Assembly: GCF_040954835.1 (NCBI RefSeq)
Contig: NC_090712.1
Location: 3,543,284-3,607,283, forward strand
Origin: Lepisosteus oculatus
Lineage: Eukaryota; Chordata; Actinopteri; Semionotiformes; Lepisosteidae
Length of the DNA: 64,000 nt
Reading direction: 5' to 3'
How positions within the stretch are numbered: the stretch's first letter is position 1; each line of letters begins with the position of its first letter. Of the stretch, positions 1 through 58,900 are shown in pieces. The notes under the pieces are model-generated. The model made no database searches. It had not been told where the DNA came from and saw only the letters and a program-made list of their open reading frames with translations. Position numbers and translations under genes: made by a program.

Positions 1-26693
<26,693 letters not shown>

Positions 26694-31345: not shown

Positions 31346-31660
31346 ATGTTCCTCACGGCAGTTTTGCTCCGAAAGGGCATTCCGGGGAAGCAGTGGATTG
31401 GGAAGTACCGGCGCCCCCGGCAGGTCACCTGGCAGATGCAGCGCAACGTGGTGAAGAGGCTGGAGGTGGAGGCGGGGAACGAGTACTGGCTGAGCCGCCC
31501 CTGCATGACCAGGGAGCAGGAGCGGGGGCACGTGGCCGAGCGCCGCCTGCAGAACTGGCTCGGCTTCAAGGCGGCCAAAGCAGCGAACTTCCCCGAGCAT
31601 CGGTTTGTCACGGATCATCTCAACCACTTGAACGTCACCAAGAAGTGGACGGTCTCCTAA
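31346..31660 (+). CDS. mrpl57: MRPL57 (MRP63), mitochondrial large ribosomal subunit protein mL63
   Basis: This small basic protein of the mitochondrial 39S ribosomal subunit acts in mitochondrial translation. The 104-residue frame starts [20 protein letters not shown] and ends [18 protein letters not shown]. Motifs shared with the vertebrate family are [45 protein letters not shown] and LNVTKKW. The human protein is 102 residues, so this is full length. The coding sequence is uninterrupted, with a splice acceptor 10 bases before ATG indicating a noncoding upstream exon. The start is fixed by the MFLT match. The longer upstream frame from 31277 crosses the acceptor and is rejected. It lies between mark1 and the CK-like gene, tail-to-tail with the latter. 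Confidence 0.95.
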
Positions 31661-32226: not shown

Positions 32227-32565
32227 TGTTTTTTTAAACATTTACATTTTTTGTGTTAAACGTCTACCGTTAAAAAAAAAAATTAACACTTGCTTAAAAA
32301 CCTGAAACACTTCTTCCTTTTCAGAGCAAATGCTATTTAATGTGGAGCTTAGTCTTTGCTCAGCGGGTGAGTTGTCAAATTCTTTCTCTGTGAATCAGGC
32401 ACATGCTGACAGGTTCTTAGTTCCTTTTAGACACCCAATGGTTGTCCTTTATTCTCATATTGAAGTGCAATGCATTTGCTATTTGCTTTGATACAAGCAT
32501 CACTGAAGCAGAGACAGTTCCTGCTTCGCCCAGCGTGACATGTTCCGTTTTTGTTTCCCAAGGCC

Positions 32566-35500
32566 CTACTTCTGAGCAGGCATGAGGTGTTTGATGGTCC
32601 CGCCTGGCTGCTCCAGCGTCTTGTCCATGAGCAGGAGCAGTTTCACCCCGTCCACCAGCAGCTGCAGCAGCTCCACTTCGGTGAAGCCGATGGTCTGTGC
32701 AGTGCAGACCTCAAAGACACCACCGCCTGCAGAGCCTGTCGAGCGAGACCAGACGGGAGGTAAGATCTGTTGCTCGTTTAATCGGAAAGATGCCCGTTAT
32801 CTGTTTTTCTGGCCCTGTTATCCATTGCCCCTGTTACCTCTTACCAGAAACCTGGCGAAAATCAGGTTTCTTTTAAGAAACCTCCAGGTGAAACATTTGA
32901 TTGGGATTGAACTGAAGTGCTTGAAGGGCATACTATACAAATTCAGCACCACATTATTTGTGACCTTTAGTTCTAATTTTCTCCATCAGGCCTGTGGATT
33001 TGTATTATATTTCTAAGGGAATCTGAACTGGCATAACCTGCTTAGGCAGTCACTGGTTACAAGTGTCACTGTGTATTTCAAGGTATGTCCTCAACTGAAA
33101 TCTCATCATTTTTAGCTTGAGAAAAAGAGGTATGGTTTTCGTAGTTTTTAAAGGGGAAATGCACCACTTTTTATATTTTGGGGTTAGCAAGAATCGGCAT
33201 TGAGGAGTGCATTTCAAACTACAATAAAAGGAAAACGCACACAGTAACTTGTAAAACCTCCAGTTTTCATCACAATATACACAACATTTCCAGCTTTGCG
33301 CTGTGCCATATTCTACAATTCAGAACGCGGCCAAAAAAACGCCAGTGAGGTGAAGTGGCCCTATTACTTTGTAAACAAGAAGGCCTGTGGACACATCTCT
33401 TTTAATCCAATATAAATACTGCTCTTGAGTTTAAGACAGTTTAGCACACAAATACTACTTGTTAACTCTGCATGCAGATCACAAGATCACGTTGGAACAT
33501 TTCTGCGGTGAAATGTCTGCTGCTCAAACTGTACATATTTGCTCGTACATCACAGTACAGTAGTTACAGTGACTAGTGAGCAGGAAGGGCTGCGTCATGT
33601 TGTAATCTGTGGGGGCTCTCGCTCTCGCCCGTGGTCAGACCAGGGGTTTGCAATAACATGGCGACTTAACAGTACTTTCACAAAGCTCGCAGTTTTGTGC
33701 TTAATTTAACATTTGTAAACAATTTCTATACTGTCAATGAAGTTATTCTGTTACAGAGATTTAATAACTGGGAAATTGGGTCTGGGAAATCGGAACTGCT
33801 GTTTTGCTTTAAAATTGATCACATCAGTTCATAAAATTGCCGACAGCTGTGTAACTTCAGGGGTCTGTTCCGAGGCTGCTGAAATGTAGCAGCAGGTGTG
33901 CTGAGCGGTCGGAGGTGTGAAGTACCTGTGTTGGCCATTTGTAGGCGCAGTCTCTCCAGGATGTTTCCCAGCTGCTTGTGCTGGTGGAGGTGCTTGAGCC
34001 TCACCTGCATGCTGGCCCTCAGGCCGGTCCCCACCTGAGCTGGAGAGCTCAGCACGTACCCAAGGTGCTCCTTCCATATGAACGGGTGCCCCATCCTCTT
34101 GTACAGCTCCTCCAGCTGAGAGTGCAACAGAAGCCGGGAGATGAGATGGATGTGCTGCTGCAGTGTTTCCAGTAGTTGTCATTTTCTAATTGTAATTTTC
34201 CACTTTCATTCCGTAAACAACTGCAGATGTGTGTATGATTTCATTCACAAAAATAATCTTGCTTATGTACATAGTAGAGGAGTTCAAGCATGAATTGGTG
34301 GCATAATTCCAAAATAAAAAGGATACCATAACCACAATTTTAGATAACGATTGTACAACAATATAGGTTTGTAGAACTCTTATTTATTTGCTTGAGCTGT
34401 TTATTGCATACATGCTAAGAATTGTAATTGTAATTGTACACCAGGTATACTACAACACTCAAAGACGTACACATCCTGCCTTCTGCATAGTCTGCATGTA
34501 GTTAATAAGACATCACTGCTCTGTTGCTCTAAACTCACCTTCTGCAGGCTGACACACAGGCATTTAAATGCCTCTTTAATGTTGCAGCCTGTGCCTGTAC
34601 AGACCAGCTGAAGGTGATCCTCCACGTTTACCCAGACAACTAGGCTTTTGTCCTGACTGGTCCTGTGAATAAATTATGCAAGTGTACATCACTTCTTGCA
34701 TACATCTGAGCATATTGTACGGCCTCACACTAAAACATTTTGCTGTGGTGATACGGTTTATTACATATGTATGTATAGCTCTTGTGCTGCTGAAAAATAT
34801 GCATTACTGAAGCAGTTTGAGACTCTTTTGGTGGGGGGTGGGGGTGGCTGTGTATTTTTGGCTGATGTCGGTGGCTGAAGGGTTAACCAAACCATTTTGC
34901 CCGAGCATCAGGCCAGTCCCTCGCCACTCCGGTCCTTAGCATGGCTTCTGAAGGGATGTCCAAGGAGTGCCCTGCCAGCTCCTGCAGAGAGTACAGTGTA
35001 CCTCCTGCTTCGCCATCCAGGTGGCTAAGGGCTGAACCAAGAAACCCTGCGTTTAGAGACTCCCAGCTACAGGCACTCCAACCCATATGAAACTGTTTAC
35101 AATGTCCCGAATCCCTAGTGGACTATACATCTTTCATCTAACCCATGGTTCTTCTTGATTTTAAAATTTTAGTTAAAAAAAAACAGTAATGTATTTCAGA
35201 TATAGCCACGTGTGCACTGCTATCCAGATTCTCCAGGTATCTCTGTGGACGGGAGGGGGACATATTGTACCTGTCTTGGCCAGCGAGAGAAGCCGTCTGC
35301 GCTCTCCTCTGCTGCAGTGTGGTGGGAAGGAGAAGCCTTCGACACAGCGCCCTGCACGCACCTCACAACTAACTACACACTGGCTGTCCAGTTCATCCCA
35401 CCCCTGAGCGAAACACAGACAACATGGGTAAAACACATCGCTGTCGATGACAAGCTGTCCAGCTTCAGATGTCTAAACACCAGCCCAACGGTGCTTAATC

Positions 35501-36845
35501 TGAGAATGCTGAGACACAAACCTGGTACAGTATTTTTCTCTTGGGTTTCTTAAAATCTTTTGTTTAACCAGGATACCATTTATTTGCAAAGTCACTGAAG
35601 AAGCTGCAGTGATTTACTTGTTTAGTGGGCACACTGCACTTTGCTGTGCCAGAGTCAGCCTTTGTGACCATTCAAAACCTGTGGGTCTGGTCTTGACTTG
35701 CTCTTGAATGCCTTCAGTTTGTTCACTCTTAAAATCAAGCTATTTAAGAAATGCTGTTGGGCTAAAGAGGCACAGCTTTATTATGGCGTGCTCTGTTTGG
35801 ACATTAGTTCTGCACGCAGGATGGCTTGATTTCATGGACAATATAAAAGACCAAAATAAAATGGATAGCATTTTTTACTTTGACTACATAAGACCAAGAG
35901 GTACAATTATAAGTTCAAGTTACCTTAAAATCATCTTTGCCATTCTACCATTAAGCCTACAAGAAAATGACAGAATGACACTTAAGTGGCTGTTTTTCGT
36001 ACCTTCAAGTTGTTGTAGTTGAAGTCACTCTGCTGGGTGCTGGTCATTTTGTAGCCCTGGTGGTAGAGTTCGATGACGCGGTCGAAGAAGTCGCAGAAGA
36101 CGATATAGGACTGGGCGTCTCCTGCCACACAGCCCACTGACACTGGGCCTGTGGCATCCCCTGCACAACACCACACAGACACAAGCAGGCTCTCCCTGTG
36201 GCTCTCATGTCACACTGAGGCACAAGCCACCAATATATCACATATTGCAAATATATAAGGATTTGAAATAAAGTTGGATAAACTTCAGTGGCAAAGTCAT
36301 TTAGTCCCAAACCCAGCCATGAACACCATCTCTTTAAAGGTGATGTGCGCTCTAGTTTCTTTTCATTTTTTCTGTAATTATAAAACCCTCCAACAAAAAC
36401 TGCGGAAATGGAGACATTTCTGAAACCTCTTTGTCAGAAGTGCCTAGAGGAGAAGCTGGCCGGGACTGAAGCATGCTTGCAAATCAGTGAAGGGCTCCCC
36501 AACACCAAAACGGTCTCCCGTATCATTCATGCCCTGAGAATTCCTCCTGAGCTGGGATGTGCACAGCAAGCTAAGCAAGAAATCTGACCAGAAATTGCAC
36601 AGAATATGCATACGAGGATGGCATCCCGGGAGGCAAAATAAGGATCGGAGTACCAGCCTGATCTGACCTGGGTCTTCAAGTCCGGGGCGGATGATATCAT
36701 CGAAGGTGAATCCGCTGTCGGTGGCTCGATTGTACTGCCGTTTGTACATTTGAAGGGTCAAGACCTTCGCCATGAATGTATGGTTCCAACTCAGGGAAGG
36801 AAACTCCTCTTCAGGGGACAGCCTGTTCAGGCGGATCAAAGACAT
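32566..36845 (-). CDS. Creatine kinase-like protein, cytosolic type, with degenerate active site
   Basis: Spliced minus-strand gene with exons 36845-36668 (coding part of an exon starting 36866), 36160-36003, 35403-35271, 35031-34893, 34662-34539, 34115-33926 and 32735-32566. All introns are GT-AG, frame is continuous and 363 residues are predicted (cytosolic CKs have about 381). Clear CK blocks: [65 protein letters not shown], and the C-terminal MPAQK of cytosolic CKs. Against rabbit/human muscle CK numbering, Cys283 is Ser268, Arg130 is Glu126, Arg236 is Gln221, Arg320 is Ala305, Glu231 is Val216. The DDHFLFDKP segment and the 323-332 loop are shortened. Arg132, Glu232 and Arg292 equivalents remain. 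Family CKs transfer phosphate between ATP and creatine; this one probably cannot. The start Met (36843-36845) is the first in the homologous exon, but an upstream coding exon is possible. Confidence 0.85.
33926..34115 (-). CDS. CK-like exon 6 carrying the reactive-cysteine site
   Basis: It reads [20 protein letters not shown], then [20 protein letters not shown] and ends [11 protein letters not shown]. The family motif LTCPSNLGTGLR appears as [12 protein letters not shown], so the reactive cysteine is serine. The RLQKRGTGG motif appears as RLQMANTG, so an ATP-binding arginine is lost. Acceptor actctcag and donor gtactt are normal. Confidence 0.88.
36003..36160 (-). CDS. CK-like exon 2 with two possible acceptors
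   Basis: It reads [19 protein letters not shown], then [18 protein letters not shown], matching the CK N-domain after the NPGHPF loop. Acceptors tgtgcag (exon from 36160) and ccacag (exon from 36148) differ by 12 bases and keep frame, giving an insert DATG or none. In both versions the conserved His of the NPGHPF loop (residue 66 in muscle CK) is absent. Confidence 0.82.
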
Positions 36846-36866
36846 GGGGTCTACAGGCTTCTTCTC

Positions 36867-38270
36867 CTGTAATGACAGAGCAAACAGTGTCTGAAAAACG
36901 TTATTAAAGCTAAAGGTCAAAACACAGGGCTGCGTGATGCCAGCTGCTTTTTTCTTGCATTTAACGTCTTTCTTTATGTACTGTATTTTTTTCAGTGAGT
37001 GACTGTGTTTGATCCTACATCTTGTTTTTTCACATCTCTCTCGTCATTCAAATACAGAATACAACCTGGGTTTCCTTTATAAAATGACTACATTATTAAG
37101 TAAAGAATTAAATACCTCTAAAACAGGCTTGTATCTTCCGACCAGTGGGGAATCAACTGGAGCTACAATGCAAATTGTGAAGAAAAGTTTAAAATGTCCG
37201 ATACGAGGCAGTTCCCAATAAGGTACGGTTTAAGCTGTTGTCAGTGCTTTACTGCTAACAACCTAATTTTTTGTGTATCATAAAACAGGGTCGTTTCCTC
37301 CAAGTAATTTTAGGTTTACACGCATTAAACAGATAAAGGTTTTGAGAGCAGAAAACAAAGAACCTTGATGAAAGTAGTTGTAAAAAGATTTTAAAACAAA
37401 AGGGTTCAACTTACGTCTGAGTTTCCACATTTCTGCAAATCAGTGTTGAAGAAAGTAAATTGTGTGAAAGAGGTCGAGGTCCCTTGCTGGCAGAGAGCCT
37501 GCTTGCTGGACAGGGGAGATATAAATAGTGTATTCCTGAGCCCACGCACCATTTGAGGAGACCTGACTTATTCCCCACCTGACACATGCGCCTTCACGAA
37601 CTGGTACATCGTCTGGTTTCAGGTTACGCAGCAGAAACAATACGTCTATTTTTAAAGTTCTAAATTTGGCAGATGTGCTAGCTTTGTGCCTTCTCACTTG
37701 AGCTTGACCACAGATTAATGAGTAACACCCAATTTATTTTCCCCCGCAATTAATAGCTTGGATTTGAAGCTCAGCTTTGTGGTTGATGGTTTTATCTGAG
37801 GTCTTCACTTAGATCACTGCTATGTAGTACATAAAGCCCTGTAGTATGTTGGCCTTCATAAACTATGTAATTACCCCATGTAGAGCACAAAGTCTCTGCA
37901 TTATCCCTGGGCTCATGAAATATAACAGTCCCTGTGGTCTGTTTAGCCTGTGTAAATCTTTCAGTTTCACATTCTGAGATTATTTGAAATGAGGATTTCA
38001 GGCATCCTAATCCAGGTTATGCTTTTCTAACCCATCCAAGTGTATTTCCAGTGAGTGACGCCAGTTTCTACAGTCAGCAGTCTTGAAATTGCAGAACTGT
38101 GCAGGTTAAATTCTATTCTATTCAATACCAGAACTACATTTGTTAAAAGAGACAGAATTTAAGAAAGTCTGACAAATGAGGGGCTAAACATATAGTGTAC
38201 GTTCAACACTAGTTTCTGCCTTTAGACAAGAACTTTTAATTTCTCATGAGTTGTTAGCGCAATATACATT
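36867..38270. other. Spacer: CK-like 5' region and sequence beyond the traf5 3' end
   Basis: It should contain the promoter and noncoding first exon of the minus-strand CK-like gene, since CK genes usually have a noncoding first exon. No TATA box, CpG island or convincing donor could be singled out. The open frame at 37440-37697 shows no resemblance to a CK N-terminus. Confidence 0.45.
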
Positions 38271-40688: not shown

Positions 40689-41269
40689 CTACAGGTCCTC
40701 GATCCCCGTCGTGTCCACCTTGACCTTCACGAACAAGGTCTCGTCTTTCACGTAGACGCCGTTTTTGGGGTTCTCCAAGTCCGCGTGCGAGACGAAGCAG
40801 GGGAAGCCCGAGGCCACGTTCATCTCGCCGGTGGGCCGGCGGAAGCTGTTGCTGGCCGGGTCGGGCTTGAAGTAGTCCAGGATGTCGCTCTTGTTGCCGC
40901 TCTGGTCCAGGATCATGAGGGTCACGGTCTGCCGGAAGGGCCAGGGCAGCAGGGAGTCGAAGTCTCCCCTCATCAGCACGATGTACAGGGACAGGTGGGT
41001 GCCCCTGCCGGCGCCGTCCCCGTTCAGGTAGGCCCGGGCGCACAGCTTGTAGCCGCTGCGGCTGGTGTAGAAGGGCATGCTGAACATGGAGGGCGCGCGG
41101 CCCTCCGCCGCCGCCTCCTTCCTCTTCTGGAAGTCCTGGATCTTCCAGATCAGCTTCCCGTTGTAGGACGTGGCTTCCAGCTGCCGGAACCTCTCGTCGT
41201 TCAGGTTGAGCTGCTCCATGTGGATGTTCAGCAGCCGGGAGTGCCGCTTGTACTGATCATCCAGGACGT
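40689..41269 (-). CDS. traf5: traf5 terminal exon, TRAF-C (MATH) domain
   Basis: This single large exon encodes the end of the coiled coil (DDQYKRHSRLLNIHMEQLNL) and the entire receptor-binding MATH domain (LSLYIVLMRGDFDSLLPWPF, RQTVTLMILDQSGNK, FKPDPASNSFRRPTGEMNVA). It is GC-rich compared with the rest of the gene. The acceptor is ttgttgcag, with phase 1 entry completing the Asn codon. The stop TAG is at 40689-40691. Confidence 0.94.
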
Positions 41270-44200
41270 CTGCAACAAGGCAGCAGCACGTTAGCGCTCT
41301 GAGCAGAAATATAAAAGATAGACATTGTTGCTGGAAAGAGAACCACAGCCTTGAAGTCTGTTGCTGACCTCTCTCCGTTGTAGTGACAGTGAGACGGGGG
41401 TGCGGTGTTGTGTGACAGATTACTACAGTCGTTGGCACTGGCAAATCAGGACGGTGTTGGGGACAGAGGTGGTGTAAAGCCCGTGTGGCTGGAATAGCAG
41501 AAACAAGCTGGTCGAGATCGCCCCTAGCTGTCATGATTATTCAAACCAATGGCTGCTCTCACCAGTGGCACAGTGCCGCCAAAAAAGCCAAGTTAGCACT
41601 GGAACGATCAAAGAACAGAGACATTGGAAAGTGTCTTTTGTTGGTTAAACCATAGTTTCTGGAAACAAAAAGTGCTTATTTGTCTACTGATTCTTTCTTT
41701 TTGTTTTAAGTTGCATTTGACACCCCAGATGCTAAGATGTCTAAGAAATAGCAGATAAGTGACAATCTACAAATGTGGTGGTGTCCTTTCTTGACTAGAG
41801 AAGTCAGGAGAACTGTCAAGCCCTGTGAACTATGAGGTCAGTGCTTCCCCTCACTCAGCGAAACGGTCTAGCAGTGGGTGGTCACCCGTATACAATTAAT
41901 ACCTGCAATTACTGTTAAAGCACAGGGGGGCGTGGTGACTTACTCAGGCGGTCTTTCAGCGACTCGATCACTGAGACCTGCTGCTTCAGGTTGTCCACAG
42001 AGGTCTTCAGGTGCCCCACCTCCGTGCGGATGGGGTCCTGATTGAAAGCGCGTGTGAGTTGCTGCAGCTGGATCTGGACACTGGACACTCTGTCCCTCTG
42101 CTCTTCAAGTGACCTCTATTGTGGCAGAAAGGCAAGACTGCTTGAGCAAACTGGCCTATGTCCCTACAATCATGTTAAACAAGCGATGATGTTTTACACA
42201 GTCATGGCAAAGCACCTGAGACAGGAATAAATAATGACAGACCGGTGGGTTTAAATAAAAGTTTGTACAGCTTTAACATTACAGTGTAGACAGGCTGGGT
42301 CATATTAGGGCCAGATAGTTTTAAGATTGCATTTGTTTTTATTCGTTCATGAAATGCACATAAAATACGAAATTCGAATTGATTTTATTCATGTAATAAC
42401 TGTCCAGCGTTTTTAACAAAAAGCACAAATCTTTCAGTAAGAACATCTGAAGCAGGGCAAATATATCAGCATGTTTTCAAGGCTACAGCTTTAGTGTTAA
42501 TTGTGCAATGGAATGTAAGGAATAATTACTGGAATATGTCAGATTAGCTGTTTACTGCCTTATCAGTTACAGAAAAGGCCTCAAGGTCTGTAAAGGTGAG
42601 ATAAGAACTGACTTTTTAAAACTACAGTAATTAGTTTGCTCCTAATGAGGTTGTTAAGAGTAGAAGAGCCTGGAAGAACAGGTCAAAAATTGCCTGAGCC
42701 TGAAACAAACCATTCTGTCATGTACTACACGAGGCTGTCCTATATACATATACTATACTGTATAAATGAGTTAGTGAACTTCAGCTGTCTGTTCTGCAGG
42801 GCAGACACAATGCTACACTGCTGTGTGTATTGAGTTCACAAGCTTTTCTCCTACTCCTGTGTAGAGGAATTCCCCACTACAGCATTCATGTTTGAGGAAG
42901 TCTTCCCAGAGCTGCTACAGTGAGGTTGCAAAACCCATGATCCAAAGCACAGCTGTGCCTCACCTGTACACAGGAGAGCATGTTGTCGGTCTTGGTCACC
43001 TGCTGTATAAGTGGCTTGATTTCCTTCTCCAGGTTGTTGACAACACTCGTCAATTCTTGAAACTCGTGGTGCTTCAGGAGCAAAGTCTTTTGGAGATCGT
43101 CTATCTGGTGGGAAACCAGCGTGATGTTAGGCATTTTGAAACTGGAAAAATTTTGAACATTTTTTGAGTACCTCAGTTTGAATAGAGGTAGTCAAACTGA
43201 AAACCAATAATGACATCAACATGGTAACCAATACGCCTAAACAACACACTTCATCATTTCCAAACAGGCAGGAAAATATGAGAATACTACTTTTTACTTC
43301 AGGTACTGTACATGAAGACAATGGTACACATCCTCTGATCGAAGAGCTCAGGCACTTACGGTACATAAAAGGCCTTCATTAGTGATTTTGGCTACTGTTA
43401 GGTTTGGCCAATTAATTTAAATACTTAGCTCATTTAAGTAATTAAGAACATCTGTGGAATCAAACCTGCAAGTCTTAATTCTGACTTGGATCAGTCTCAC
43501 CATTGTTACCTGTTTTTCCAGCTTGAAGTTACTTTCCAAAACAAGAAGCAGATGGTCTTTCAAAGCTACATCTTCATGGGCCTCCACATTTACTCGTTTT
43601 TCCTACTTAAAAAAAGGAAATACAGTTATACCGGTATTTAAATGGGAAAATAAGAATTGCACAGAGGAATACAGTTGTTTTGCCTGTAGGGATCTATTTT
43701 GCTACACTGAGGACCAATGTAAGGTTTACCTTTATTCTTCAAGAGCAGCAACAACATTGTGTATAAAACATTTCCTCAAGCTTAAAGAGTTCCCGCGCTG
43801 TCTTTCGGGAAAATGTTAATGATTAAGACTTACAGAAAAATGACCAAAACGAAAAAAACACAGAGCTCTCATGTCTCTTTATTTGCTTCATCACCAGATG
43901 ATTAAAATTGAGATATTTCATCACGGAGAGCTTACATGAAGTCAGAAACTGTCCTGCCCTTTTAATAAAATGAATGACTCATGCCAAAGTCTGTGGTGGT
44001 ATTAATCAAAGATCTGAGTTTGGCACATTTTGTGAATAGATAAGAGTATTATTTATACCAACCCTGAAAAAGCAGCCGTATTTCTTGTATGTGCAGTCGA
44101 TTTCAACCTGGGGGCATTCTTGAAAATGGTCTTTCAGCTGAAATGTCAAATGATGGTAAACAAAGAGTGCAAGTCAATTAGCACGTTTCCCAGCAGCCAG

Positions 44201-47200
44201 AAGCCTTATCAGCAGCAGGGAGAAGTCTTCAGGTCAGAAATGTTGGTTTGTCAATATCCAGCATAATTAGCAGTCAATGCATGGAGTTAGCTTTAGTGAA
44301 TACAGAAATATTACCCGTATGTAGTTACTAATGTTTTCATTAATATTTTATTTGAAGCAGTATCTTATTTGGACTATATATACAAATTTACGTACATATA
44401 AATTGGACAAAATGTTATCATGAACTTTGTGATTGAAGATGATATTGACAGGTCAGAAGACACATTCTAAGCTAAAGAAATTATCTTTTAACAATAAGCA
44501 AATTTGACAAATATTTGAAATAATATTAATATTGCCCAGCATGACAGTAAGAAATAAAAACAGGATTCTAAACAAGATTTTCTCTTAAGTCATTTCAGTC
44601 TTGCAGTATCAGAAGAACTGTACTCATATCAGTGATAGAGGATCTCACTTCCTTTTGTGTTTTCAGCAATGACTACGCTACTAAGAACAGGCAACCTGCT
44701 AGCTAAATCAGCTAAGTGTTACTTTTTTCTTGAGAGAAAAAGAAACGTGGCACATCAGTATTAAACAAGTATTAAAAATATTTTATTAAACAAGTTCTAC
44801 GGAGAAAGAACTTCAATTTTCTCCTGTACTGGGCTGATCTCTAAATCGGGCATTTTTTGTCAGACAACAGCTAAAATCTATTAACAGAAGTTTAGTGATT
44901 TCATTTCTAAAAAAAAGAGTACAAAGCAGTTTGCTGGCTACAGTACATCTGATTTTCTTACCTTGTGTCTTTTTATAACCTGAGAACACTTGTTGGGGCA
45001 CTGAATTTTGAAGTCCGGACAGTTGGTGTCTTCATGATCCTAAAAATGCAACCATTATCAGAGTTGAGACAGGGCAAGCAAAGCGTTGCCACAGAGAGAA
45101 ACCGCACTTGCTGGAGCTCATTAGAAAGCAGCTGGAGATGGGGCAGCACTCTAACTCCGAGGCTCCTTATCCTGGTCCTGGGTTAACTCTGTGTCTTCCG
45201 TCTTCCAGCTGAGTTCTTAATCACAGCCTGACTAATTTTAGTTTCCTATCTGGGGCATATCAGTAAATTTGCTTCCAGCTCTCAAAACATCAAACGGGAT
45301 TAGTAATCAATATCAACAGTGGACCAATTTTGCAGTTTCATAGCAGTCCTCATGCAAGAGTTTCCTGAAATTTAAGCCACTGGACCTCTGCAAAGGAAAA
45401 CATCCATTGCAGGCGAGTCTGAGGTCGTTCCCACCTGTGGGCGTGTCTGAGGTTGTTCCCACCTGTCGGCGTGTCTGACGCAGACGGTCCCACCTGTGGG
45501 CGTGTCTGACACAGATGTTCCCACCTGTGGGCGTGTCTGACACAGATGTTCCCACCTGTGGGCGTGTCTGACACAGACCTTCCCACCTGTGGGCAAGTCT
45601 GACTGGGTCGTTCCTATCTGATTCTGTTCATCATCAACTGATCAACTAGTAAGATCTACTTAGACAGAAATAATGCCCAGCCAGTCGAGGAGAGAAGAGC
45701 AGCATGAACTTCAGTGTACTGAAGCAGTTGAAAACACAACACTCAGGACAGACTGAAGAATCAAGTGAAACAGAAGTCTGAAGAAGCAAGCAGATCAATG
45801 AAGTCATCGGTTAGCAATGAAGACTGAGAGCACAGCTGGAGTGGTAACCAGCAGACACAGCTTACCTGCAGGACCAGGGCTGGGAACTACTGCTTTAACT
45901 ATTCCAACCAGACAAGCATTCCACAGTAAAAGGTCTTGTGCTTACCTTTAACTGAATCAGCATATAATGCTTCTCACAGTGTGGACAAGATTCCATGCGG
46001 TAGGCACAGATGCTCATCAGATGTTCCCTCAGATCCATGCGGAACATCACGTCCGTGCAGCCTGTGTTGGTGCACTGCACGGACTCGTATGGACAGTGCT
46101 TCAGGTGCTCCTGGGATACAGAAGGGAAAGTGTCACAGGACTAACAAAAACCAGAACGGCTACTTCAAGGACAAGATGCCCCTTGGCCTTTTCTGCTGCA
46201 GTAGGTATTAGAGGGGATCATTCAGCAGTATTTTTTTATTCGATACTTCATGGCTACTCGTGTTGACTTGTTATTTGTCATGCTGTGTGGGATCAAACAT
46301 TATCATTGAAACTTGAGTGAAAATGTGGCTGGAAAAAAATAAAATTCCCCGTAAAAGATAAAACAGGTGTTTTGTTTCATCTGAAAGCTGCGTCCCCTTT
46401 CTGTCAGAAACAAGTCAGTGGACTGGGAGGGAACTACCACTGGTTACTGTCATGAAGGTGGGGTAGAGGCAGAGGAAAAAGTATAGAGCAACTATAACCA
46501 TACGTCATGAATTCATCCTTCATGTCAAAACTAAAGTATTCGTAATTTGTGGGGATTATGGAAAGTAATTCTGATGTTATTTATTATGTGAATAAAATTG
46601 CAGTGAAAATGCCAAATATTCAAATACTACATGATCAGGACCTTTCTCTTGATGATGTATGAAATAACATTTACTGTACAATTCCATCCTGCCAGACCTC
46701 AAATAATTTAGTATCAGCTTTTTTCTTTTTCAGGAGCTTGGGTCACATACCAGATTCTATGATACTTTCTCCTCTGCAGGAGCTTGGATCAAGTATGTTA
46801 CTAATTAATCTACTGTATTGTGCATGTTATTAATAAAATGGTTGCAATCTTTCCCCCAAAATACAGAAGCAGATTTACCGTATTCAATAATTAAGAATAT
46901 TCCAAAACATAAATTGTCTTACCTGCAAACGCCCTAAGGTCACCTTCAATGTACAGTCCGGCGCATTGGCACAGTATATTTCCAAGTTCAATATTTCTCT
47001 TTTACAGCAGTTATCTTGAAAAACCTACAGAAAATGCAAATCCCAGGATGAGCTCAATGTTTAACCAAACCAATATTGTCTACTTTTTTTTAACAATACT
47101 AACAAAGCTGTACACTGTATTAGCATCTCATATGATCCAGGGTGTTCTGAAATTCAAATCCAAATTCAAATCTTTCCGGTAAAAGAATGAAAATGTTCAT

Positions 47201-48357
47201 TCTCCAGACAGCGTACACTGTATTAAATACTGTGGTAAAATCAAGATCTAAGTACAGCCATTGTCTAGTTTGTTTGCCTTATACACCACAACAGGGAATA
47301 AATGCAAAGGCCACACCTGAAGGAGCTACAGTAACAATATTCCACCACATGGCTATAAAATATTCTATATAAGATCTTACCTCATTCGCCTTTATCAAGG
47401 CATTATCTATAGGGCATTTAGGCATTGTGGTGCTCTCCCTTGAAAAAATGAAAGACAGTCAATTAAACAACCTGGTTTCTCCCACCATATTAATAATCTA
47501 AGAACTACCTGCAGCTTTTTGGGATACATTTATAAGCTAGTGTCTGTTCCAGGATAAACAAGATCTTTCTTGATTTTCTGGGGTAGCAGCAGGAGTTTAC
47601 ATTGAAAGTGGTAAACCACCCTGCTTAATCAGAATTTCTTACATCTGCGCAGCACATCACAAAACACACTATACTGTACTGTATATAAAAATCCCTTCAT
47701 CCTCCACTGAAGTGCAGCCCCACCTGGGGAAACGTTAGGGAACCTGCCAACTATACAAGCCCAGAGTGCAACATGGCCAGGACACTTTTCAACACTTAAC
47801 ACTCCTGCCTCTTCAAGCACTGTCATGGGTTATTCTATGCCAAAGCACTCACAATTTACTTAACACCTGGCCTGAACTTTTTTTAAGAACTAAGTCACAA
47901 ATGGGGTAATCATTAATAAAATGAAAATTCAAACAAAAAAAATGGCTTGATGAGGTATCCATGTCTGTGTCAGTAATTAAAGTTTCACTGCGCGCTGAAA
48001 ACCGGGAAGAAAAAACAGCCAGAACATTGTTTCTTCTTTCTACTTTCCTACATGCAATTGTTCTTCAGTTGTTCCTCTAATGGCAATCTATGCACCTGAA
48101 ATTTTTCACAGAAAGACCAACTGCTCCTTTTCTTACAGGAAAGCTTTGATGCACTGGTAGCAGAAGATGTGCCCGCAGCCCGTCTGGTGGGGGTTGAGCA
48201 CCACATGTCCGCAGCTGGGGCAGACGTACTGCCCCTCCAGCTTCTCCACAAACTGGATGTTCCGGGCCAGCAGCGCCGGGTCCAACTCCGCGGACACGGC
48301 GACGCCGGAGTTCTGGCGCGACAGACCTCCCGCGGCCGCGCTCTCTTCGGAAGCCAT
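40689..48357 (-). CDS. traf5: TRAF5, TNF receptor-associated factor 5
   Basis: Adaptor for TNF-receptor superfamily members (CD40, LTBR, OX40, CD27) feeding NF-kB and MAPK signalling in the cytoplasm. Coding exons: 48357-48137, 47438-47381, 47024-46923, 46110-45946, 45039-44962, 44137-44063, 43602-43510, 43104-42964, 42115-41944, 41269-40689; 561 residues, human about 557. The RING is near residues 45-85 (VCPSCGHVV, NPHQTGCGHIFCYQC, CPID). TRAF zinc fingers follow (DNCCKREILNLEIYCANAPD; CPYESVQCTNTGC; CPDFKIQCPNKC). Then a coiled coil (DDLQKTLLLKHHEFQEL, EEQRDRVSSVQ) and the TRAF-C/MATH domain from about 405 (YNGKLIWKIQDFQKRKEA, FYTSRSGYKLCARAYLNGDG, GEMNVASGFPCF, ending VDTTGIEDL). The ATG follows an acceptor in the RING exon, as in the family. 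TRAF5 rather than TRAF3 is chosen for FQDNCCKREILNL, the SGYKLCARAYLNGDG stretch and the DLEDL-like end. Confidence 0.95.
45413..45612. repeat. 31-bp minisatellite in a traf5 intron
   Basis: About six tandem copies of a unit near GTTCCCACCTGTGGGCGTGT plus CTGACACAGAT. The central copies are nearly identical and the edge copies diverge. All three reading frames stay open on the minus strand only because of the repeat, so the open frames there are not genes. It lies between exons 44962-45039 and 45946-46110. Confidence 0.85.
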
Positions 48358-48363
48358 CGGGGC
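48137..48363 (-). CDS. traf5: traf5 first coding exon, RING part
   Basis: The exon starts after acceptor cttgtctccag (exon base 48363), has six UTR bases, then ATG at 48357-48355. It reads MASEESAAAGGLSRQNSG, then LARNIQFVEKLEGQYVCPSC, then GHVVLNPHQTGCGHIFCYQC. It ends in phase 2 with donor gtaaga; the leucine codon is completed by 47438. Confidence 0.93.
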
Positions 48364-48770
48364 CTGGAGACAAGAAACGGGACACCAGAGCGCCGTGAAG
48401 CTGGGCCCCCCTACAGACAGCACAAACGATGCTTCAGATTTTGAAAAGGGACACAGCTACGAAATAGTGAGGCGTGCTGGTTACAGCCTCTTTCTAAGAA
48501 CATGCAGTTGCTTGCCAATGTTCGCCCTTTTTAGGCTGCACCCGCAACTGTTCTGAACAGGGTATGACATTGGTGACAATTTTAATCTTCCTGTTCACGC
48601 AAACGCACGGAAGATGCTGGAATTAAAAGCAAAGTCAACCGCCGCCCCTCAGCCGGGCACACAGAGAAACGCAGCTGCAGAATTGTTACTCTGGCACCGG
48701 TGACAGGGCGCTTGAACGCGGCAGACGGGGTCACTGGAGGGCAAGGTCACCGTGCACGGAAACGCCATCA

Positions 48771-55973: not shown

Positions 55974-58900
55974 CTGCGGGCGAGAGGATTAGTTCCGATT
56001 TGCATTTCAGTCACCACGCGTCAGACACTCAAACCTGTCACTTTCCTACACTGGTGCGATGCCGGATCAACAGTTGTTAAAGTTTCACATGCAGTCGGTC
56101 GCACACAAACGCACGTTAATCACAGTAACTCCATCAGTACAAAGATATAATCGACAGCACCAATACTCAATTGAGCACAAAGCAGCAGCACATAGTACTG
56201 TGACCGAAATGCAGACTAGACCCTTGTGAGTCAAACTCCCATAAGTACATTTTCTTATATAAATCGATTTCTTGACAGATGTGCACGCTCTTAAATCCAG
56301 CACTTGCCCAGTATTTTCAATCATGTTCGACTTTCACAAATTTCATGAAGCAAACTATTGCACAGAAAACAGTAAAAAGGCAAATAGCTTTAAGATGCAT
56401 TTAAACTGCATTTTCATTTTCCACCATTATAACGGCCATTTGAAAACTAGCGTTTACCTGGTAAATTTGATCAGTTTGGCTAGACTTTTGATTTGTACAG
56501 GCGTGCTTCCAATTTGGCTGTTCGGAGATTAGTGTCTAGCTAATCGAACGGTATCCGTCCTTCACCAAAGCAGCTCAAGGGACTAACAGACCCCTTAGAT
56601 GTCACAGGTGTAACAACCTCCCGAGTGCAACATTTGCACATCTGCCCATCCTGCTCCGGTACAACTCCGGATCTCGGAAGGGAGTGTGCTAGCGTTCGGA
56701 ATTGTTAAGAGCATTTTTCTTCCCTGCACAATTTGAGCCAGGAATGCTGGACACTCTCGTCCATCTGCCATGATGAAAACTTTCAAGGCAGCACGGGGTT
56801 TTGTGGGCGTACAGTGCTCATGGGCTTTAGGGGGTGCTGTCAAAGACAAGGGCGTTTCTCGCCTTGGGGGGGGTGGGGGGGGGCTCGGTTTTGGGAAAGT
56901 CAAGTAGAAAGCGCCACCACCTCCTCCTCCTCCTCGTCGGTACTCTTCCCTGACGGAGTGTTGGAACTGTTCTTCCCCTCCTCCCCCGAGGCCGCTGCGT
57001 CTCCGTTGGGGGCCCGCGTCCCCTGTTCTGCCTCCCACTCCTGCAGCACCTCCTCCAAGTTAAATCGACGACGGTAGTTCACAAAGAAGTTTTTTACCTG
57101 CCCTACGGTCTTATTACCGATAACGTCGGCAATAGCCTGGAAGTCTTTTCCATACTTCCGGACACCTACGGAGAGACAAACGCCACGTTCAGTTCCCCCG
57201 GCGCGAATCCAGCCATGCTGCGTTACCGGCTCACACACAAACGGTATGGTAAGGGCTGAAAGGAACATTTTAATGAAGAAATACAGTCTTACAGTATAAT
57301 TCCTGGAGTTAATCTTGGAAAAGACACTTGGCTTCCCCCCCTTGGAGTTTTAAAATTTTTGCTTCTGCTCAACCTGATAAAAGTATACCGGACTACCTCT
57401 AGCAGACATAACATTTCACGAGCGACAGAATATTTTCACAGTTGCCCAGAACGGTCCTACAACATTAACAAATGGGCAAAAGCCTGCACCTGTATCTGAT
57501 GGTTTTCCTTTAGAATGCAAGAAATGTTAAAGTCCTCACCCAGATTAAACCACCTACTGTGCTTGACTAAAAGTATTCTTACTTTTTGTTAAGCGCAGTA
57601 AGAAGGTAGTTTATTCTTAAAAACAGCATTTCAGTGACTGTTAGAACCGGTAATAAAAAGTGAATACTTAATAAAATGTATTTAAGAATAAAACAACTGA
57701 AAATGTACCTTGAACTGCAAGAAGCTGCTCATCTGTTGTCCAGCGAGCATTTACTTTCTGGGTGCACTACAAGAGAGAGACAGTCGTGAAGTTATATTTT
57801 TTTATTTCCCCATGTGCATCCTCAATAGGAGCATTAATTGTCTGTAAGGACAATCTGACATTTTATTAGCTGGGAGTAACATCAATGAGTACTGCTAAAA
57901 ATATATTTTCCATTTAATAATATTGTTTTACTTTTCCTAAACTTTTTTTTTTAATCTCTCTTATCTAGGCCATGTCTTACCCTGTCTCACCTATAAGGCT
58001 TTACATGGCTTGGCACCTCAATACCTGTCTGAACTTTTATCGCCCTACTCCCCACCTCGCAACCTCAGCTCTTCAAATTCTGCCCTCCTTACTGTCCCCC
58101 AAGCCCGTCTACATTGTATGGGCGACAGGGCCTTCTCCTGCTATGCCCCCAAGCGCTGGAACTCTTTGCCCAAGGATATTAGAGAGTCACTTTCTCTAAA
58201 CTCCTTCAAATCCAGACTCAAAACCTTCTTCTTCAGAAAAGCCTTTACTTAACTGGTTCCATTCTTCACCCCTCTGCTCTTCTTAATACCACCTTCCACG
58301 GTCTCCTCTATTGTTATTGTTGTATTGTTGTAATTTTAATTGTGTCCTATCTTGTGAAATCTTCTTAATTATTGTTGTAGTTTTCTTATTTATTGTTATT
58401 GTCATCATGTAAAGCGCTTTGAGAAGCCACCTTTAAAGGCGCTATATAAAATAAAGTTTATAATTATTATTACCCTATATCTTTATTCCAGAGGAAATTC
58501 AGTTCTAGCCTCATAAAACACAAGCATGCATGAGAAACATTTTGTTTTTACCTCATTCACAAGTATTCATCTTGGGGGGAAAAAAATGAGCTTAGTACAG
58601 TTTGACAGATGTGTCTTAAAATATGAAAACAGAAAATTACTTGCATACAAAGCACAAAATTAAATAACTTCCATAAATTGCACTATATCAGGGTTCATGT
58701 TCACTGCTTTTTACAATCTGAATCATCAACCTTTGTTATTTACCTCAGGAAGCCTGCAGTCATCAATACCTGCTTCCAGCTTCTGTTTTAGACCACTGTT
58801 AACCTGTTTAGCATTTTGAACCTTAAAGACAGTAAAACCAGACAGCATCATGAATAAACACAGTAATTGAATTTACGAATACCTGCACACAAAAAAATCT

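Follow-up and report, generated by a model that had tools for sequence, protein, structure and literature searches.

In this work we analysed a window of 64,000 nucleotides from the gar Lepisosteus oculatus (contig NC_090712.1) that carries a gene resembling creatine kinase (CK) on the minus strand, at positions 37430-32566. We think that this gene encodes a pseudo-creatine kinase, that is, a cytosolic-type CK paralogue older than the split between sharks and bony fishes which would have lost catalysis stepwise and would now be a folded, dimeric binding protein, and we give this reading a probability of around 72%. The original prediction had proposed that the gene is intact but its active site dismantled, with selection for the fold rather than for catalysis, and this core claim was supported. 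The losses are fixed in 120 rows of ray-finned fishes, and the same positions are nearly invariant in 101 canonical CKs. Furthermore, the family forms a single clade that goes back to sharks, the dimer residues tested and the modelled fold are kept, and full-length open reading frames (ORFs) imply transcripts.

Structure of the gene and its active site

The spliced reading of the window gave nine coding exons encoding a protein of 391 residues in a single open frame, and all the introns are GT-AG when spliced on the minus strand. Residue positions are given in human CKM numbering, unless the gar 391-residue numbering is indicated; in the following lines the gar residues carry the latter.

37415..37430, minus strand: coding exon 1, MWKLR plus 1 nt, donor GTAAGT; N-terminus shared with paddlefish (P0011), bichir (P0120) and sharks
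37116..37162, minus strand: coding exon 2, PPVDSPLVGRYKPVLE; match in alligator gar (P0001)
36668..36866, minus strand: coding exon 3, ends in EDPG
36003..36160, minus strand: coding exon 4, ends in NNLK
35271..35403, minus strand: coding exon 5, Arg130 position is Glu154; Arg148, Arg151 and Arg152 kept
34893..35031, minus strand: coding exon 6, begins ALSHLDGE; His191 segment shortened; acceptor set by the match to P0001
34539..34662, minus strand: coding exon 7, contains VNVEDHLQ; NEED becomes NVED; Arg236 position is Gln249
33926..34115, minus strand: coding exon 8, LEELYKR...RLQMANT; Cys283 position is Ser296; Arg320 position is Ala333
32566..32735, minus strand: coding exon 9, ends in HLMPAQK and the stop; specificity loop shortened; Arg341 position is Thr
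32448..32453, minus strand: AATAAA polyadenylation signal (motif match only), 113 nt downstream of the stop

The two 5' exons encode MWKLRPPVDSPLVGRYKPVLE and account for 21 residues; another 7 lie at the start of exon 3. Exon 2 is backed by the alligator gar protein P0001, a partial protein without exon 1, and the whole N-terminal extension is seen in paddlefish, bichir and shark proteins. The exon 6 acceptor lies 15 nt further in than the first AG (exon 35031-34893), a choice made to match P0001. Seven exons and 363 residues had been described at first; those exons, their clean GT-AG borders, the one intact frame and the preserved MPAQK end (LMPAQK in our protein) stand, but the gene has nine exons and 391 residues, and the 363 residues are residues 29-391, counted from an internal Met.

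A provisional 368-residue form, which lacked the 5' exons and had 5 residues too many where exon 6 begins, was used for phmmer, Pfam and the first homology search. Since phmmer against human CKM gave an E-value of 2.5e-105 and both phosphagen-kinase Pfam domains (N and C) matched, a chance resemblance to CK is excluded. The gar protein differs from the Atractosteus spatula 'KCRM kinase' at 11 of the 385 residues compared, with no indel.

Regarding the active site, Arg130, Arg236, Cys283, Arg320 and Glu231 correspond to Glu154, Gln249, Ser296, Ala333 and Val244 of gar (391 numbering). The first four replacements had been foreseen as Glu126, Gln221, Ser268 and Ala305, which is the 391 numbering minus 28. 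The change of NEED to NVED was right for the Glu231 position, with the correction that Glu232 of the box is kept. The segment around DDHFLFDKP, given as about 11 residues shorter, was counted as 11 shorter, and the 323-332 loop is, as proposed, shortened, by a net 4 residues in our own count. Gar shows further losses that had not been noticed before: Arg96Tyr, Arg341Thr, His296Gln, Ile69Pro, Ser285Ala and Lys319Met. Arg132, Arg135, Arg292, Glu232 and Asp233 are kept. According to extracts of PMC12387690, the phosphate pocket is made up of Arg130/132/236/292/320 and the specificity pocket of Ile69 and Val325, and Asp54-Arg148 is a dimer contact; an extract of PMC12467219 adds Arg341. Thus gar retains only 132 and 292 of the phosphate pocket.

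Losses across ray-finned fishes, sharks and rays

With an E-value limit of 1e-20 the first homology search gave 665 proteins, and the best 120 of these 665 were taken: 116 from ray-finned fishes, 3 further rows (P0002, P0020 and P0041) and 1 fused pigeon Ckb (P0118). The ray-finned tally (n=120) consists of the 119 rows left after dropping the pigeon protein, plus gar; it includes several isoforms and duplicate species, and the rows are not independent. Cys283 is Ser in all 120 rows, and Glu231, Arg96, Arg130 and Arg320 are retained in none (with one gap at 320). The Arg341 position is Thr in 119 rows, Ser in one and Arg in none, the 323-328 specificity loop is gapped in 117-118 rows, and the Ile69 position is Pro in 105. 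Therefore a gar-specific oddity was rejected, the same losses being found throughout the tally. Arg135, Arg148, Arg151, Arg152, Arg209, Asp210, Trp211, Arg215 and Trp218 are kept in 120/120. The family appears in the databases as creatine kinase M-type, B-type, testis isozyme and zgc:172076 (the zebrafish copy, P0032), and many of these fish annotations are probably misleading about function.

As a canonical control we used 101 of 119 new matches to a bird CKB, after 18 rows longer than 470 residues were dropped; they are mostly CKB-type, with CKM thinly sampled. The catalytic positions are kept in 100 or 101 of these 101 rows. Because the family rows are not independent, we also calculated weighted fractions on 130 rows that include the shark type (effective number 20). 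Arg96, 130, 132, 236, 292, 320 and 341 are kept at 0.00, 0.01, 0.25, 0.32, 0.52, 0.00 and 0.05 respectively. Among the eleven remaining arginines, eight (135, 148, 151, 152, 209, 215, 314 and 316) are kept at 0.94-1.00; arginines 43, 251 and 252 do not reach that level. Catalytic residues have thus been lost across a conserved orthologous family, which is one mark of a pseudoenzyme.

A second search was made with the bichir protein and the best 120 of its 534 matches were examined. Among them nine rows (P0241-P0249) are of shark/ray type, namely eight shark and ray proteins and one more of the same type. The N-terminal extension is present in eight of the nine, the ninth (Narcine) being a shorter protein. 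All nine have Ser132, Gly191 and Lys231; position 96 is Tyr in eight and Cys in one, the Arg320 position is Lys in six and Asn in three, and Arg130 is retained in two. Cys283, Arg236, Arg292 and Arg341 are intact in 9/9, and the specificity loop has its full length in 6/9 by our own count. A protein with NKED (Lys for Glu231) and an intact Cys283 is a partly dismantled CK, which may or may not be active. Because such partly dismantled orthologues exist in the same clade, the family seems to predate the split between sharks and bony fishes. Gar and some other members still have Arg132, which makes separate losses in sharks and in many teleosts probable. No family member from land vertebrates or lobe-fins was found among these best 120 of 534 matches, where the two bird rows are fused canonical CKB, and this only suggests that the family is absent from those groups.

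Maximum-likelihood trees were built on chosen subsets of 48 rows (the first tree), 42 rows (without two testis-named rows) and 44 rows (with these restored); a larger canonical tree, distorted by a Coryphaenoides artefact row, was left out. P0002 carries the label sturgeon in the trees and has 97% identity to paddlefish P0011. The family forms one clade (100/100), in which sharks and rays (98/98 and 100/99) stand against the ray-fins (100/100) in the 42- and 44-row trees. Its inner branching follows broadly the species order, except that Amia and the gars are not joined (94/77, 42-row tree). The position of the family is less clear. In the 48-row tree it grouped with three teleost rows (100/99, inner forks 90/66 and 94/55). 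In the 42-row tree, where the third of these rows, Sphaeramia, was retained, it fell among unresolved vertebrate CKs, with a canonical clade of only 42/19. In the 44-row tree the pull to the testis-type CKs was back (91/98) and one canonical clade was not rejected (approximately unbiased test, AU, p 0.253). Topology constraints gave p 0.154 (AU) for one canonical clade, 0.080 for CKB alone as a clade and 0.132 for the family with CKM. As the constrained alternatives are not rejected, the trees do not place the family among the CKs. An origin inside the teleost testis-CK lineage was not accepted, because members of the family occur in bichirs, paddlefish, gar and sharks.

The family has long internal branches (a stem of 0.53 plus 0.43 changes per site in the 42-row tree). 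Such fast evolution would fit a gene in decay or a faulty annotation, which we find hardly credible. The original prediction had taken the one intact frame of gar as a sign against a decayed pseudogene. The frames are long and open in ray-finned fishes and in sharks, so a recent pseudogene was rejected. Four full-length family ORFs lie on short contigs (1.3-1.8 kb), which implies that the family is transcribed. The few differences from alligator gar, with no indel, also speak against decay, and so do 66 positions that match human CKM in at least 98% of the 120 ray-finned rows. The sequences are best read as pointing to purifying selection on a dead, dimeric, CK-fold binding protein.

Fold, possible role and alternative readings

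The predicted structures have the CK fold, with around 44-48% identity in the structural matches. Arg151, Arg152, Asp210 and Trp211, which we take to be CK dimer contacts, and likewise Asp54 and Arg148, have weighted kept fractions of 0.93-1.00 in the 130 rows; as a set the six exceed random position sets (P 2e-5), the set having been partly chosen after the ray-finned tally. The N-terminal extension of around 28 residues is conserved from sharks to teleosts and is modelled at low confidence, with a predicted local distance difference test score (pLDDT) of 51-67.

These data strongly imply, at the level of sequence, that the chemistry has been lost, in what may have been two steps. The gene would have arisen as a cytosolic-type CK paralogue, most likely a genome-duplication copy beside CKB and CKM, before sharks and bony fishes separated. 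Arg96, Arg320, the NEED box and the adenine-side His191 would have been lost first, a state that would persist in sharks; Cys283, Arg341 and the creatine-specificity loop would have followed in the ray-fins. The CK fold, the presumed dimer contacts that we checked and the N-terminal extension would have been kept throughout. The protein would neither bind ATP productively nor make phosphocreatine. It may act as a folded dimeric binding protein, pairing with itself or with an active CK and binding partners through its extension and surface.

Several observations weigh against this reading. Canonical CKs are in the model alignments and at 46% identity a CK fold is to be expected, and therefore the models say nothing on function. 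Of the six dimer residues only Asp54 and Arg148 come from the extracts of PMC12387690, and the other four are presumed contacts. In the ray-finned rows the Arg236 position is still Arg in 69/120 and Lys in 35/120 (Arg or Lys in 104/120), the Arg292 position is Arg in 80/120 and Lys in 38/120, and Arg132 is Arg in 13/120. Position 232 of the NEED box is E in 92/120 and D in 28/120. With Glu232 (Glu/Asp), Arg135 and mostly Arg292 retained and Arg or Lys at 236, some chemistry is conceivable. Regarding Cys283, C283S CKB serves as an enzymatically inactive mutant (PMC11336976, in extract), but rabbit CK was nearly fully active after around 90% alkylation of this residue in the part of PMC8448711 that we used; thus no single residue is decisive, and the combination is. 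Finally, new residues are fixed in the ray-fins: SSPA at 282-285 (119-120/120), Thr341 (119/120) and mostly Glu130 (115/120). They amount to a new constraint on part of the region, which could reflect a new ligand rather than a loss.

The retained residues just described, together with the database names and the four catalytic residues kept by sharks (Cys283, Arg236, Arg292 and Arg341), would favour a protein that is still a phosphagen kinase, with an altered substrate or a reduced activity. We regard this as very improbable, given that Arg96, Arg130 and Arg320 are absent from all the ray-finned rows, Cys283 is Ser in every one and the loop is almost always gapped, and gar lacks Arg236 as well.

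The newly fixed residues could also mean that the former active site was remodelled so as to bind or sense some other ligand, which we consider unlikely. The 19 pocket positions had a mean entropy of 1.15, against 1.14 for all the sites (P 0.53; 121 ray-finned rows), the changed pocket positions were no more conserved than other changed sites (P 0.38), and positions 132, 231, 296, 320 and 335 vary freely. The pocket positions of the ray-fins thus evolve at the background rate, and canonical CKs hold the same positions nearly fixed. A wholesale repurposing of the pocket is not supported by this entropy test for the pocket positions as a set.

Possible too, although we would not bet on it, is a regulatory partner subunit, which would use the retained interface to form heterodimers with an active CKB, CKM or teleost testis CK and would modulate or target these through its N-terminal extension. 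The kept dimer-contact residues and the conservation of the extension are consistent with it, as is the CK-MB heterodimer; within the superfamily a heterodimer is also known structurally (glycocyamine kinase alpha-beta, 3l2e). However, the changes fixed near Asp54 (Gln58Arg in 116/120, Asp62Glu in 118/120, and Thr59Pro) could equally mean exclusive homodimers, and the low modelling confidence of the extension does not help the proposal.

Neighbouring genes and known systems

The neighbours of the gene bear on its origin:

26316..26693, plus strand: MARK1-like ORF with KA1 domain; 221 bits to MARK1 (3ose) and 194 bits to MARK3 (1ul7), no MARK2 or MARK4 row being compared
31346..31660, plus strand: MRPL57 (MRP-63) coding region; PF14978, E 6.1e-34; tail to tail with the CK-like gene
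40689..41540, minus strand: TRAF5 MATH-domain exon ORF; 270 bits to TRAF5 (4gjh) and 229 bits to TRAF3
56900..57349, minus strand: RCOR3 SANT exon ORF; 145 bits to RCOR3 (4czz) and 93 bits to RCOR1, with no RCOR2 row

The block spans 7200-26693 on the plus strand (MARK1), 31346-31660 on the plus strand (MRPL57), 40689-48456 on the minus strand (TRAF5) and 56900-57349 on the minus strand (RCOR3). A tandem array of 5.8 copies of a 31-bp unit lies at 45427-45603, between the MATH and RING exons of TRAF5, and the ORF at 57941-58252 on the plus strand looks by eye like a C-terminal retrotransposon remnant.

Human CKB lies with MARK3, TRAF3 and RCOR1 on 14q32 and CKM with MARK4 on 19q13. TRAF5, RCOR3 and MARK1 are on human 1q, and the block in the window is apparently 1q32-like. 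Because the MARK1, TRAF5 and RCOR3 neighbours parallel these CKB and CKM blocks, they suggest that the CK-like gene may be a third copy, next to CKB and CKM, from a genome duplication. A bolder and rather doubtful extension is that this third cytosolic copy, which sharks and ray-fins have and land vertebrates apparently lack, turned into a non-catalytic subunit that forms pairs with active CK and directs it by its new N-terminal tail, after inactivation in two dateable steps of which the first is preserved in sharks.

Compared with known systems, cytosolic CKB and CKM resemble the gar protein in fold, length, both Pfam domains, presumed dimer-contact residues and PAQK end (around 44-48% identity), whereas the family lacks the pocket arginines, Cys283, Glu231 and the specificity loop and has a conserved N-terminal extension. 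The teleost testis-type CK lends its name to some family members, and the family attaches nearby in trees that include it. Nevertheless, the two testis-named rows sit among the 101 canonical rows that keep the catalytic residues, and the trees do not demand the attachment (AU p 0.154 and 0.253), which conflicts with the presence of the family in bichirs and sharks. The shark and ray 'creatine kinase M-type-like' proteins of eight species (e.g. Pristiophorus, Heterodontus, Scyliorhinus and Mobula) are orthologues, with the same extension and in one clade; unlike the ray-fins they keep Cys283, Arg341 and, in 6/9, the full loop, and have Lys at 231. Pseudoenzymes are well studied among the protein kinases, and pseudokinases and other catalysis-deficient partner subunits, such as the trypanosome AdoMetDC prozyme, keep the enzyme fold after the loss of catalytic residues, in a different fold from that of CK. 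A non-metabolic, AKT-binding role of the C-terminal part of CKB is described in an extract of PMC8551525 and was not used as evidence here.

A literature search of partial coverage found no description of this zgc:172076 family and no pseudoenzyme among the phosphagen kinases; on the human synteny it brought up only unrelated interaction lists. The gene itself was already in the databases under CK names; what is new is that we recognise in it an old family of pseudoenzymes whose shark branch is only partly dismantled.

A dead CK that maybe dates from the vertebrate genome duplications, together with its partial shark orthologues, offers a natural series for the loss of chemistry with fold and dimer contacts kept. 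Our results also suggest that many fish gene models carry the name 'creatine kinase' wrongly, and this would have consequences for expression and proteomic work on energy metabolism. Through zebrafish zgc:172076 the function of the family is open to knockout.

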